Shown: piece by piece, positions 11,471 to 48,033 of the stretch
Layout: each line of letters opens with the position of its first letter
Position numbering within the stretch: the first letter of the stretch is position 1
The notes under the pieces: generated by a model
Database searches by the model: none
What the model was told of the DNA's origin: nothing
Seen by the model: the letters and a program-made list of their open reading frames with translations, nothing else
NCBI GenBank assembly: GCA_018228685.1
Contig: CP073691.1
Location: forward strand, 1,364,001-1,428,000
Direction: 5' to 3'
Origin: Clostridiaceae bacterium Marseille-Q4149
Lineage (GTDB): Bacteria > Bacillota > Clostridia > Oscillospirales > Oscillospiraceae
Length of the DNA stretch: 64,000 nt
Translations under genes and position numbers: made by a program

Positions 11471-11510
11471 AACAGCAAGAATGGGGGCTGCCGCCCCCGT
11501 TCTTGCTGTT
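11471..11510 (-). terminator. Hairpin directly after the sigK stop codon
   Basis: An 18-bp stem (11471-11488 with 11493-11510, one G-T pair) begins at the stop codon of the sigK 3' half. It lacks a clear U-run on the minus strand but is the only candidate sigK terminator. Confidence 0.6.
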
Positions 11511-11878
11511 TATGGATAGCAGTGCTCCCGCAGGGCCGCCTCCAGCTTCTCCAGAGCGCGTTTCTCGATGCGGGAGACATAGCTGCGGCTGATGCCGTAG
11601 GCGGCGGCCACCTGACGCTGGGTCTGGGGCGGGTGGCCGTCCAGGCCGTAGCGGCGGCGGATCACGTCGGCCTCCCGGTCCGTCAGGCACTCCCCTACCA
11701 GCCGCCGGATCAGCCGCTGATCCTCCCGACCCTCCAGGTCCTCCTGCATGGTGTCGTCGGCCCCCACCACGTCCTGCAGATATAGGGCGTTGCCGGCCTT
11801 ATCCGTCTCGATGGCCTCCGACAGTGACACCTCCCCCTGCAGCTTCCGCTGGGCGCGGAAGTGCATGAGGATTTCATT
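11510..11878 (-). CDS. sigK: SigK sporulation sigma factor, 3' half (regions 3-4)
   Basis: This is the C-terminal part of the mother-cell sigma factor. From the crossover it reads NEILMHFRAQRKLQGEVS. Region 4 follows with ECLTDREADVIRRRYGL and the HTH GISRSYVSRIEKRALEKLE, matching SigK/SpoIIIC. The piece has no plausible start of its own, and its first codons overlap the recombinase stop. Joined at AATG to the 5' half at 47700-48033 it gives one 233-codon frame restoring CIENEILMHFR, the normal SigK sequence at this point. SigK directs late coat and cortex genes. Without excision this half should be silent. Confidence 0.95.
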   Translation of the reverse strand, partial: NEILMHFRAQRKLQGEVSLSEAIETDKAGNALYLQDVVGADDTMQEDLEGREDQRLIRRLVGECLTDREADVIRRRYGLDGHPPQTQRQVAAAYGISRSYVSRIEKRALEKLEAALREHCYP

Positions 11879-11888
11879 CGCTATACTC
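11867..11888 (-). other. Left skin attachment site (crossover core AATG)
   Basis: On the minus strand the site reads GAGTATAGCG-AATG-AAATCCTC. The core AATG (11878-11875) is shared with the right site at 47703-47700. The element-side arm AGTATAGC is the inverted partner of GCTATACT at the other end. The recombinase stop codon TGA uses TG of the core and the next chromosomal A. Confidence 0.88.
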
Positions 11889-13583
11889 TCCTGACAGACA
11901 CATAAGTTGGTCTACGGGCGGCAAATCGGCCTCTCCGTCCTCGGCAAACAGGTACACATAGGCATTTTTGCCGTCCCAGACCACCTTTTTGACGATGGTG
12001 CGCAGCAGGCGGCGTTTTTCCTCCAGCGTCGCCGTATCCACCGCATGGGCGAAGGATTCGATCATCTCTTGATGGAAGGCGAACTCCTGATGGAGCATCC
12101 GGCTTTGCTCCGTGAGGGCCTCCAGCTTAGAAAGCCTTGATTGCTCCTGCTCGCTCTGCTGGTGCAGCTCGTCGATCTGCTCCATGACGTACTTAGCCGA
12201 GGTGTCAGTAGCAACGGACAGAGAGTCTACCAATCTCTTGATGCGCTCTTCAGTCTCGGCGTGCTTTTCGCGCAGCTGTGCCAGCTCCGCGTCGTAGCCC
12301 TCCTTGTTGCCGCTGATAACCTTTTTGGTCTGCGCCAAGAGCTTGGAAAGGGTCTCCTTGTCGGCGGACAGCTTGCGGATCTCCTCGATAATCTTGGCGT
12401 CCAGCGTATTGCCGTTGCAGTTTTTCATGCCGCACACTGTCCCGTGGCTGCGCTCCTTGGTGGAGCACATATAAGTATAAATTAGGTCGCCATCGGCATT
12501 GGTACGGTTGGTCAGTTTGGGGCGCATATAGTCGCCGCACTCGCCGCAACGGAGAAGCCCCGACAGCAGCGCCACATTGCTGCGTGGCCTGCGGTAGCTC
12601 TTGGACTTGTTGACATCCAGCATGGCCTGTACCTGCACCCAGTCGCTGCCGGAGATGATGCCCGGATGCTTGCCCACTGCCACGATCCATTCCTCCATGG
12701 GACGGATCTGGTTGGCCTTGCCGGGGCGCTGCAGGGTGCGGTTGTAGGCCATGATACCGTGCTCGCCGTCGAACTCGGACTGCTCGGCAAACAGGTCTGC
12801 GTTGTTCTCCTTGAGGTACTGGTACGCCGTCTCGTCGGCGATCATATAGACGGGATTTGTGAGGATACCCCTGATGGCAAACCGGGTGAACTGCTTGCCG
12901 CGCTTGGTGACGCAGCGATGCTCCAGCAGGTACTGGTCGGTCTTGCTAAGGGAGCCGGTTTCCATGAAGACGGAGAAAATCGTTTTGACCAGCTGGATTT
13001 CCTCCGGAATGGGCTTCAGCTTGTAGGCCTTGCGCTCCTTGCCGTCCACCGTTATCTTGGATTCGCTCTCCGAAGCGTAACCGGTGGGCGTGGTGCCGCC
13101 CAACCAGCGCCCGGTTTTGGACAGCTCGTGCATGTTGTCCCGGATGCGCTCGGCGATGGTTTCCCGCTCCAGCTGGGAAAAGACCGACGCGATATACATC
13201 ATGGCCCTGCCCATGGGGGAGCTGGTGTCGAACTGCTCGCGGATAGAGATGAAGTCGATGTGCCGGTCGCCTAAGTCCTCGATGAGTTTGGCAAAGTCGC
13301 CGATGTTGCGGCTGATGCGGTCAAGGCGGTAGACCACGATGGCGGCAAACTCGATTTTCTGCGAGTCCTTCATCATTTTCTTGAACTGCGGGCGCTCCAG
13401 ATTGCCGCCGGAAAAGCCCTCATCCTCGTAGACCAGCGCATTCTCCGCTGCGTCGTCACCAAAGTGCATGGCGATGTACTGGCGGCACAGCTCGATCTGG
13501 TTTTCGATGCTCTCGCCCTTGCCGGTGAACTTGGACTTGCGGGAGTAGATAACATATTGCTTCGACTTGTCTTTCGTCTTCAT
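11874..13583 (-). CDS. spoIVCA: Large serine recombinase, SpoIVCA-like skin excisionase
   Basis: A 569-residue large serine recombinase. The catalytic domain (residues 1-150) has Ser in YVIYSRKS, the arginine helix VVYRLDRISRNIGDF and SxMGRAMMYIASVFSQLERETIAERI. Then come a recombinase domain (GYASES...LTNPVYM), a zinc ribbon (LRCGECGDYMRP...CSTKERSHGTVCGMKNC) and a coiled-coil domain (residues 420-520). It is transcribed toward the sigK 3' half and its last codon pair overlaps the crossover core. By analogy to SpoIVCA it excises the element in the mother cell. A ribosome site GAGGTGCC precedes ATG 13583. The excisive role is inferred from position. Confidence 0.93.
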   Translation of the reverse strand: MKTKDKSKQYVIYSRKSKFTGKGESIENQIELCRQYIAMHFGDDAAENALVYEDEGFSGGNLERPQFKKMMKDSQKIEFAAIVVYRLDRISRNIGDFAKLIEDLGDRHIDFISIREQFDTSSPMGRAMMYIASVFSQLERETIAERIRDNMHELSKTGRWLGGTTPTGYASESESKITVDGKERKAYKLKPIPEEIQLVKTIFSVFMETGSLSKTDQYLLEHRCVTKRGKQFTRFAIRGILTNPVYMIADETAYQYLKENNADLFAEQSEFDGEHGIMAYNRTLQRPGKANQIRPMEEWIVAVGKHPGIISGSDWVQVQAMLDVNKSKSYRRPRSNVALLSGLLRCGECGDYMRPKLTNRTNADGDLIYTYMCSTKERSHGTVCGMKNCNGNTLDAKIIEEIRKLSADKETLSKLLAQTKKVISGNKEGYDAELAQLREKHAETEERIKRLVDSLSVATDTSAKYVMEQIDELHQQSEQEQSRLSKLEALTEQSRMLHQEFAFHQEMIESFAHAVDTATLEEKRRLLRTIVKKVVWDGKNAYVYLFAEDGEADLPPVDQLMCLSGEYSE

Positions 13584-13620
13584 AGCGGCACCTCGCGCAT
13601 ATCGTTAGGTTGATAAGCGC

Positions 13621-47031: not shown

Positions 47032-47065
47032 GGGTCAGCATCTCCTGAATGATTCTGTAATAATT

Positions 47066-47671
47066 CTATCGGACTTTTTTGCAGCTTTCAAGTCTCTGCT
47101 TGAAATACCTCTCCCATGTGGATTTGAAAATCTGCTTCCGATTCTGCTCCCACTGTTTCAGGCTGCAGAGGCTGACGCCCAGCTTGTCCGCATATTGTCT
47201 CTGCGTCAGCCCCAGTTTCGTTCGGATCGCCTTGATCTGATCCCCCTGACCGTTTCGCAGAAACAGATTATAGTCATCCAGCAGCGTTTCCACCGGCACC
47301 TCAAAAAGCCGCGCGATCCGTTCTATATGTTCCGGCGGGTAGAAATCTTTCCCGGATTCCTCATAGTGAACATACGTGCTTCGGTCAATCCCGGCACAGT
47401 CAGCTACGTCTCTCTGCCGCAGGCCTTTCTGATATCGCAGCCAGCGGAGCTTGTCCGCCGTTTCGGCGATTTCCGAGAAGTCCGAGAACTGCAAATTGAA
47501 CTTTTCTGCGTCCTGAAGTTTGTGCGGTAGCACCACCGGAAATTGCAGGATTTGCAGCGGGGCCACTTTTACTGAACCTGATATATTGGAAATCAGAATG
47601 TAGCAGCGGACTTCCACTTGCGCCAGCAGACGCCATTTTGCCTCAAAAGGTGTCCGTTCCACCATCTGCAA
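47066..47671 (-). CDS. Protein with two XRE-type HTH domains at the right end of the element
   Basis: A 201-residue protein. Residues 1-70 are unfamiliar. An HTH_3 domain spans about 73-130 (LRWLRYQKGLRQRDVADCAGIDRSTYVHYEESG) and a second about 148-190 (IRTKLGLTQRQYADKLGVSLCSLKQWEQNR). It starts at TTG 47671 or ATG 47665, with only a weak ribosome site, 32 bp from the crossover core. On the excised circle its frame is continuous with the recombinase. It may repress the element or act with the recombinase; both roles are inferred. Confidence 0.8.
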   Translation of the reverse strand: MQMVERTPFEAKWRLLAQVEVRCYILISNISGSVKVAPLQILQFPVVLPHKLQDAEKFNLQFSDFSEIAETADKLRWLRYQKGLRQRDVADCAGIDRSTYVHYEESGKDFYPPEHIERIARLFEVPVETLLDDYNLFLRNGQGDQIKAIRTKLGLTQRQYADKLGVSLCSLKQWEQNRKQIFKSTWERYFKQRLESCKKVR

Positions 47672-47685
47672 GGCCGTTTCTTCCG

Positions 47686-48033
47686 TTAGGTTAGTATAGC
47701 ATTTTCAATACACCTGGACGCATAGGTTGCCAGGCGGATTTTTTTGTCCGGCCGGAAGGTGTTCACGGCCTTGATCAGGCCGATGGTGCCGATGGAGATC
47801 AGATCCTCCTGGTTGGCAGCCTGGGTGTAGTACTTCTTGATGATATGGGCCACCAGGCGGAGGTTGTGCTCCACCAGGCAGTTGCGGGCAGACAGGTCTC
47901 CCCTGCCCCACCGCTCCAGACATTCCCGCTCCTCCTGCCGGGACAGGGGGCGGGGAAACGACCCGGGATTTCCGGACAGGTGCAGCGTCAGAAACAAGCT
48001 GTTGGACAGCAGCAGCAAAGCCGCCGATAACAT
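47686..48033 (-). CDS. sigK: SigK sporulation sigma factor, 5' half (pro-sequence and region 2)
   Basis: This is the N-terminal part of the mother-cell sigma factor. ATG 48033 has AAGGAGG 8 nt upstream. Residues 1-20 are hydrophobic (LSAALLLLSNSLFLTLHL) like the Bacillus pro-SigK leader. Region 2 follows: ARNCLVEHNLRLVAHIIKKYY, NQEDLISIGTIGLIKAVNTF and IRLATYASRCIEN, matching SpoIVCB. The true frame ends at Asn111 in the crossover; four element-encoded residues (AILT) and a stop follow. Excision joins it to the 3' half at 11878. Confidence 0.95.
   Translation of the reverse strand: MLSAALLLLSNSLFLTLHLSGNPGSFPRPLSRQEERECLERWGRGDLSARNCLVEHNLRLVAHIIKKYYTQAANQEDLISIGTIGLIKAVNTFRPDKKIRLATYASRCIENAILT
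47692..47712 (-). other. Right skin attachment site (crossover core AATG)
   Basis: On the minus strand the site reads GTGTATTGAA-AATG-CTATACTA. The core AATG (47703-47700) matches the left site at 11878-11875. The element-side arm GCTATACT mirrors AGTATAGC at the other end, giving AGTATAGCGAATGCTATACT on the circle. Confidence 0.88.

Follow-up and report, generated by a model that had tools for sequence, protein, structure and literature searches.

We analysed a 64,000-nucleotide stretch of the genome of Clostridiaceae bacterium Marseille-Q4149 (contig CP073691.1, positions 1,364,001 to 1,428,000; hereafter the window), in which the gene sigK is split by an element of 35,825 bp (11876-47700). 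All coordinates are window positions; L-numbers denote compared loci and G-numbers the host genomes of relatives. We consider it very likely that the element encodes the means of its own removal in the mother cell, namely a large serine recombinase (LSR) aided by a 58-aa likely recombination directionality factor (RDF); this excision is predicted to rejoin sigK. The split, the in-frame join, an intact LSR, matching att halves and a conserved small protein behind a sigma-E-type promoter can be read from the sequence directly (Table 1).

The two sigK halves lie on a common minus strand in the correct order, the first closing with AAT and the second opening with GAA. Removal of 11876-47700 gives a single frame of 232 codons plus stop that reads YASRCIEN/EILMHFRAQ across the seam. 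The joined protein passed the NCBIfam SigK subfamily model NF004471 (272.6 bits; cut-off 252) and fell under the strict cut-off of the SigK model TIGR02846 (263.2 bits vs. 298.65), while it scored 228.4 and 218.8 bits with the SigE models (cut-offs 339 and 348.6). The N-terminus of the 5' part is hydrophobic, like that of Bacillus subtilis sigK, and presumably resembles the pro-sequence of pro-sigma-K. Directly inside the insert, an LSR with an intact reading frame bears Resolvase, Recombinase and Zn-ribbon domains (PF00239, PF07508, PF13408). An earlier note on this DNA had described same-strand halves that can be rejoined into one frame, identified the joined gene as sigK, placed a large serine recombinase at the inner border and read the insert as being of the skin type. 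Each of these points was borne out, the last by an LSR-encoding element with an exact att junction whose deletion rebuilds sigK in frame. The RDF candidate and its sigma-E-like promoter, described below, are absent from that note.

The junction sequence is GAGTATAGCGAATGAAATC on the LSR side and GAAAATGCTATACTAACC on the opposite side. attL and attR have a common core and imply a dyad attP, the imperfect palindrome GTATAGC-GAAT-GCTATAC; in relatives, attP extends into longer, imperfect arms such as CCGTTnGGAGAGGATAGC / GCTATCCTATCATAACGG. All 71 scored sigK-3' junctions have two invariant A bases, followed on the right by T (53 junctions) or C (18), matching the variation of the Asn codon; the pattern TAGC[AG]AATGA is exact in 50/71. 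Because of this invariance, we infer that crossover takes place at AA. The AATG that the earlier note reported at both junctions is present in the window, but across the family only the AA at the border of element and host is constant. We also considered the LSR stop codon, a TGA completed by sigK bases, as a conserved borrowing device. This was rejected, since TGA is possible only where the host codon is AAT (53/71 junctions) and is therefore not essential. A second candidate concerned the protein with two Cro/cI-type helix-turn-helix (HTH) domains that adjoins attL, whose frame would join that of the LSR in the circle. The fusion would be open for 149-213 residues in the window, L122 and L126 and for 2-30 in the other loci, and it is probably incidental.

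Scanning GTDB genomes with a four-sequence LSR alignment returned 450 relatives, and our counts refer to the best 80 of these. A sigK half adjoins the LSR at the same codon in 74/80 loci (the 3' half in 71, the 5' half at the LSR end in three), which excludes chance placement. Four of the other six run off their contig (L076, L094, L107, L111), L043 is intergenic, and L105 (Pectinatus) has no adjoining sigK half. The sigK-adjoining relatives span Clostridia and Negativicutes, with host titles that include Oscillospiraceae, Lacrimispora, Sporomusa ovata and Defluviitaleaceae bins. The earlier note had called the element a third type, which understates its distribution: besides these 74 loci, sigK insertions are printed for the Bacillus cereus group, Clostridium tetani, C. 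botulinum, C. perfringens and Alicyclobacillus (PMC5025042, PMC10745906, PMC13141910). As judged from its sequence, the window element is thus a skin-like sigK-intervening element but no isolated third type.

Viral contigs held 41 LSR relatives, among which L002-L004 lie beside the 3' half of sigK and L005 lies beside its 5' half. No LSR relative of 60% identity or more was found in plasmid (best 5000 records) or phage collections, among those counted. The LSR lies reversed at the sigK 5' side in L005, L067, L088 and L110, where the junction core reads the same; the module can face either way with respect to the core. Inserts with both ends available measured 2,654 (L106), 4,198, 4,200, 6,135, 6,957, 7,084, 7,266, 7,777, 7,807, 7,867, 8,601, 8,953, 10,503, 10,716, 11,508, 14,664 and 15,281 bp, next to 35,825 bp in the window. 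The positions of the halves in whole genomes indicated further inserts of about 15, 19, 23, 25, 26 and 27 kb, and the largest, of ~140 kb, in G013 (AP018533, complete genome CCNA10; sigK halves, 3055142-3195562). Of 295 sampled genomes of the order to which G003 belongs, at least 11 have an exact junction pattern. About 73/120 genomes of the G003 family have, among the matches listed, a near-full-length uninterrupted SigK match, that is, an empty site.

With regard to excision, the 58-aa protein is probably the RDF, based on its linkage to the element and its promoter. Its family was first found via small open reading frames (ORFs) of the shortest elements. One member each, antiparallel to the LSR, is present in 20/20 complete sigK elements checked, five of which were search seeds and several of which are close relatives of each other; the antiparallel arrangement also holds in L110, whose LSR is reversed. 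A phmmer search with the window protein as sole query recovered relatives from other elements, with E-values as low as 8e-26. At E <= 0.1, an iterated profile matched 45 ORFs from 45 loci, a number of which overlap. A database search returned 180 proteins, and the named ones among the 120 listed are hypothetical or uncharacterized.

Upstream regions were taken from 43 profile matches (E < 1e-15), of which 40 remained after three with unplaceable starts were dropped and 26 after redundancy and length filters. The strict pattern ATA-N14..18-CATANANT, which follows the sigma-E consensus, occurred within 100 bp upstream in 13/26 non-redundant candidates, the window's included. This compares with a mean of 0.15 (maximum 2) in dinucleotide shuffles, 4/556 among control ORFs from these loci (minimum length 120 aa), and 2/97 among 200-bp regions upstream of LSRs, a set that includes some prophage LSRs. 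The looser ATA-N14..18-CATA was found in 18/26 (shuffle mean 1.65, maximum 6; controls 32/556).

Several observations weigh against the RDF assignment. The promoter pattern was fixed after inspection of the upstream regions, the other 13/26 do not have its strict form, and GGACA boxes are weak (10/26 upstreams; shuffle mean 3.2, maximum 9). L043, a complete cassette relative outside sigK, has no match to the 58-aa profile at E <= 10. The protein itself has no match in Pfam (best 0.052, for one member), NCBIfam or PHROG and no credible match in PDB. Its AlphaFold model shows two helices (mean predicted local distance difference test score 85), for which a PDB fold search gave nothing at E <= 0.001; the PDB profile search gave nothing better than 0.038, and the SP-beta LSR-YotN (SprB) fusion 9dxd was absent from the matches. 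Neither search therefore lends structural support to an RDF role. It is possible, though unlikely, that the 58-aa protein is some other conserved cassette gene and that another small ORF encodes the RDF. One such candidate would be the two-HTH protein, which is likewise located at the attL-side end and has matches in 15 loci. The lack of detectable similarity to any solved RDF would fit such a case, as would the published statement that RDFs have no significant similarity among them (PMC5025042). This would be at odds with the presence of the 58-aa family in every one of the 20 complete sigK elements that we checked. The smallest of these, L106 (2.65 kb), shows no HTH protein among its listed ORFs.

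Taking the 58-aa protein as the RDF, we propose that growing cells express the LSR from its sigma-A-like promoter and that the LSR by itself would only integrate. In the mother cell, sigma-E would drive synthesis of the 58-aa protein, which would turn the LSR to attL x attR recombination. The element would then leave as a circle, sigK would be restored and (pro-)sigma-K could be made, and the forespore would keep the element for inheritance. The logic of a constitutive LSR with a sigma-E-driven RDF is that shown by experiment for Clostridioides difficile, where the RDF is under sigma-E and SpoIIID and the LSR alone is enough for integration (PMC5025042).

This mechanism would also explain the choice of target. 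The gene sigE bears a near copy of attB (16-21/24 central bases identical in the four genomes compared), yet no junction half is SigE-type (64/71 read SRSY, 0/71 SQSY and 7 were unscored by the pattern); with a sigma-E-driven RDF, an element that inserted into sigE would block its own excision. The near-identical sigE sequence could instead be read as a sign that the LSR is a plain integrase, that excision is triggered by stress or transfer rather than by sporulation, and that sigK is just a convenient conserved attB. The horizontal movement of the module would be consistent with this, as would L043 (142-5539) of Hominifimenecus microfluidus, a 5.4-kb cassette relative with an LSR at 93% identity that is intergenic and directly downstream of what appears to be a tRNA gene; this secondary site has the same ends and lacks the 58-aa protein. 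Nonetheless, we find this explanation quite unlikely, considering the 74/80 relatives in sigK, the SRSY-type C-halves and the sigma-E-type promoter of the 58-aa gene.

The state of sigK in relatives bears on whether excision matters to the host. No second sigK was found in the 26 host genomes of relatives, where no near-full-length match exceeded 51% identity. At 45-51% identity such a match is present in 23/26 (none in G011, G021, G025), and SigE was the best model in 10/10 of the matches examined; seven clear both SigE cut-offs, L174 and L175 clear one of the two, and L173 falls just under (329.8 vs. 339). When the halves of relatives were joined, 9/9 were open through the seam and 4/4 tested passed NF004471, with none reaching the strict TIGR02846 cut-off. 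Alternatively, the host may have lost sporulation, with the element a mere inactivating insertion, the sigK halves a dead gene and no developmental excision. This would be in line with excision not having been observed, with one close LSR relative in a genome labelled Faecalibacterium prausnitzii (a non-spore-former) and with the abnormal 3' ends of three joined relatives, but we find it quite unlikely. Both window halves have open frames and satisfy the SigK subfamily model, the joined relatives are open through the seam and those tested also satisfy this model, and an intact LSR and the RDF candidate with its sigma-E-type promoter are retained.

Some results nonetheless speak against developmental excision. 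Three of the nine joined relatives (L126, L110, L101) end early near SRSYVSR, and a second sigK cut lies near codon 65 in L088 and probably in G001 (L138 + L042, a metagenome bin), so that one excision would not restore sigK in some relatives. No excision product was seen: when viral contigs were searched for an attP-like pattern, four loci matched, and the LSR family adjoins none of them. We rejected these as free circles, since they appear chance-like, with one weak LSR match in the four records.

The additional cuts are described here in their own right. At L088 11747-11884 (minus), with 9983-12286 (+) and 11845-13503 (-), sigK apparently consists of three pieces. The middle one, of 46 codons (KKYYTQ...CIEN), has the window-type LSR family on one side and a different LSR on the other, and two excisions would therefore be needed. 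In G001, the 5' part (L138) is cut at the codon-65 site and the 3' part (L042) adjoins the window-type LSR family. An apparent second insertion site near codon 65, before KKYYT, was seen in 6/120 genomes of the G003 family (L152-L157), with another LSR family at this site in L152 and L154. The 3' part of sigK ends abnormally near SRSYVSR beside mobile-type genes in L002 (~2551), L003 (~2104), L049 and L050, possibly indicating a third insertion site; counter to this, L114 and L101 have a similar end followed by ordinary-looking genes.

Comparisons between hosts suggest that the recombination module travels. LSRs 91-93% identical to that of the window occur in seven hosts (L042, L044-L049) whose sigK 3' halves are 44-73% identical, and the cassette therefore appears to move between hosts. 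Whole elements from other hosts (L122, L126, L128) match the window element at both ends only, with 74-84% identity, and the window capsule genes had no match in L001-L139, many of which hold only part of their element. The recombination ends thus resemble a portable cassette, one that passes from host to host while its cargo changes. More broadly, we lean towards a portable developmental-excision cassette (a sigK-specific LSR, a sigma-E-driven RDF of a new family and a palindromic attP) that would have spread horizontally through Clostridia and Negativicutes. Split sigK would then be a recurrent mobile state in spore formers, cargo ranging from one small gene to ~140 kb would be lost from the mother cell only, and the sigma-E dependence of the RDF would confine the cassette to sigK.

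One LSR family at one sigK codon in 74/80 loci, with a common RDF candidate, contrasts with the description of the skin element as "an exception in clostridia" in a 2016 paper (PMC5025042). The shared site makes the rule testable in many species together and predicts excision sites to the base. It also offers a small natural study system (2.65 kb), a candidate new directionality-factor family for serine integrases and a testable explanation for sigK as the target. Our results suggest that split-sigK genomes could be mistaken for sigK-negative and hence non-sporulating. If the proposal is true, sigK can harbour a capsule locus that the mother cell alone loses.

The cargo of the window element is mainly of capsule/exopolysaccharide (EPS) and mixed type (Table 1), and further includes a RhuM-like protein, an alcohol dehydrogenase and a glycosylase. 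The Pfam scan covered 30 proteins (element ORFs and the sigK 5' part). No relaxase or conjugation ATPase was found among these 30, so that self-transfer is not evident, and no head, tail or packaging gene was found among them either. In a PHROG scan of ten proteins, structural matches were limited to the collagen-like protein at 38788-39627. Outside the element and directly downstream of sigK, a helicase-like protein (8706-11423) matches parts of defence helicase models and is 89% identical to a sigK-element cargo gene of Pseudoflavonifractor phocaeensis (L122 8379-11078). ARAGORN called a tRNA-Asn at 29527-29616, inside the gene of the 1963-aa protein on the opposite strand, which is probably false.

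Table 1 Features of the split sigK gene and its intervening element in the window.
Feature	Positions	Strand	Basis
sigK 3' part, codons 112-232 + stop	11510..11875	-	reading frame; joined-protein models
attR, LSR side, ...CAGGAGAGTATAGCGAATGAAATCCTC	11850..11905	-	sequence, other elements
LSR, 569 aa; TGA stop completed by sigK bases	11874..13583	-	PF00239, PF07508, PF13408; phrog_95 integrase
sigK-intervening element, 35,825 bp	11876..47700		ends set by in-frame join and other elements
Sigma-A-like promoter TTTTCA-17-TATAAT ahead of LSR	13621..13649	-	found by eye in sequence
AAA_14 ATPase at LSR-side end, common to ten loci	13779..15563	-	domain scan, locus comparison
Capsule/EPS-type cargo block 1: CpsB/CapC, AAA_31 ATPase (BY-kinase type), Wzz, glycosyltransferase, LicD	20992..25709		domain scan
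1963-aa surface-type protein: NAGPA, metallophosphatase, BspA-type leucine-rich repeats	25846..31737	+	domain scan
Capsule/EPS-type cargo block 2: three glycosyltransferases, Polysacc_synt (flippase type), EpsG	31796..36835	+	domain scan
Mixed cargo: tyrosine-phosphatase-like, collagen/tail-fibre-like, CHAP, DUF3848-sortase	36992..42829	-	domain scans
Sigma-E-type promoter ATA-16-CATAAATT, 33 bp before candidate RDF	46462..46488	+	pattern test
Candidate RDF, 58 aa, antiparallel to LSR	46522..46698	+	family in 20/20 complete sigK elements checked
67-aa ORF at attL-side end, common to four loci	46828..47031	-	locus comparison
Protein with two Cro/cI-type HTH domains, adjoining attL	47066..47671	-	domain scan, junction reading
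attL, sigK 5' side, ...GAAAATGCTATACTAACCTAACGG	47671..47725	-	sequence, other elements
sigK 5' part, codons 1-111	47701..48033	-	Sigma70_r2 match; joined protein = SigK
sigK promoter-like site ATA-17-CATAGGAT with GGAC box; loose pattern form	48056..48083	-	sequence

No account of sigK elements in Oscillospirales or of the 58-aa RDF family was found in the open-access literature searched, a scope that leaves subscription papers and preprints outside. Contrary to the earlier note, the B. subtilis and C. difficile elements do not interrupt sigK at the same position (PMC10745906, PMC6957869): the C. difficile element (skinCd) differs from that of B. subtilis in its sigK position and is opposite in orientation (PMC10745906), and the two attB sites are in different sigK regions (PMC6957869). 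The B. subtilis skin element (SpoIVCA, Skr; 48 kb) resembles ours in encoding an LSR and interrupting sigK, and its recombination site AATGA (PMC10745906) resembles the window site in sequence. It differs in being a prophage remnant in which spoIVCA is under sigma-E and skr overlaps spoIVCA (PMC6957869), whereas the window element has capsule/EPS-type and mixed cargo, a sigma-A-like LSR promoter and an RDF candidate that lies apart from the LSR and antiparallel to it. By its published description, skinCd (CD1231, CD1234; 14.6 kb) is like the window element in that its LSR adjoins the sigK 3' part; its LSR is constitutive and its small RDF is under sigma-E and SpoIIID, an arrangement similar to the one proposed here (PMC5025042). 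CD1234, of 72 aa, is reported as being without significant similarity.

Insertions in sigK of the B. cereus group (Bcbva island IV at nt 195; AH820 and J7/J62 at 423) likewise interrupt the gene, and the Bcbva island has non-phage cargo and is excised during sporulation; hosts and cargo differ (type I restriction-modification in Bcbva) (PMC10745906). The Bcbva position equals codon 65 of that sigK, which can be compared with the second insertion site near codon 65 in the G003 family. The gin element in gerE of B. cereus ATCC 10987 is also a non-phage gene-intervening element with an LSR (GirC) and an RDF (GirX), but it occupies a different gene and has three recombinases (PMC5595907). SP-beta in spsM, phi3T in kamA and yin in yabG pair an LSR with an RDF (putative for yin) and interrupt and rebuild other sporulation-associated genes; they differ from the window element in their targets and in that SP-beta and phi3T are prophages and yin is prophage-like (PMC6957869, PMC10747680).

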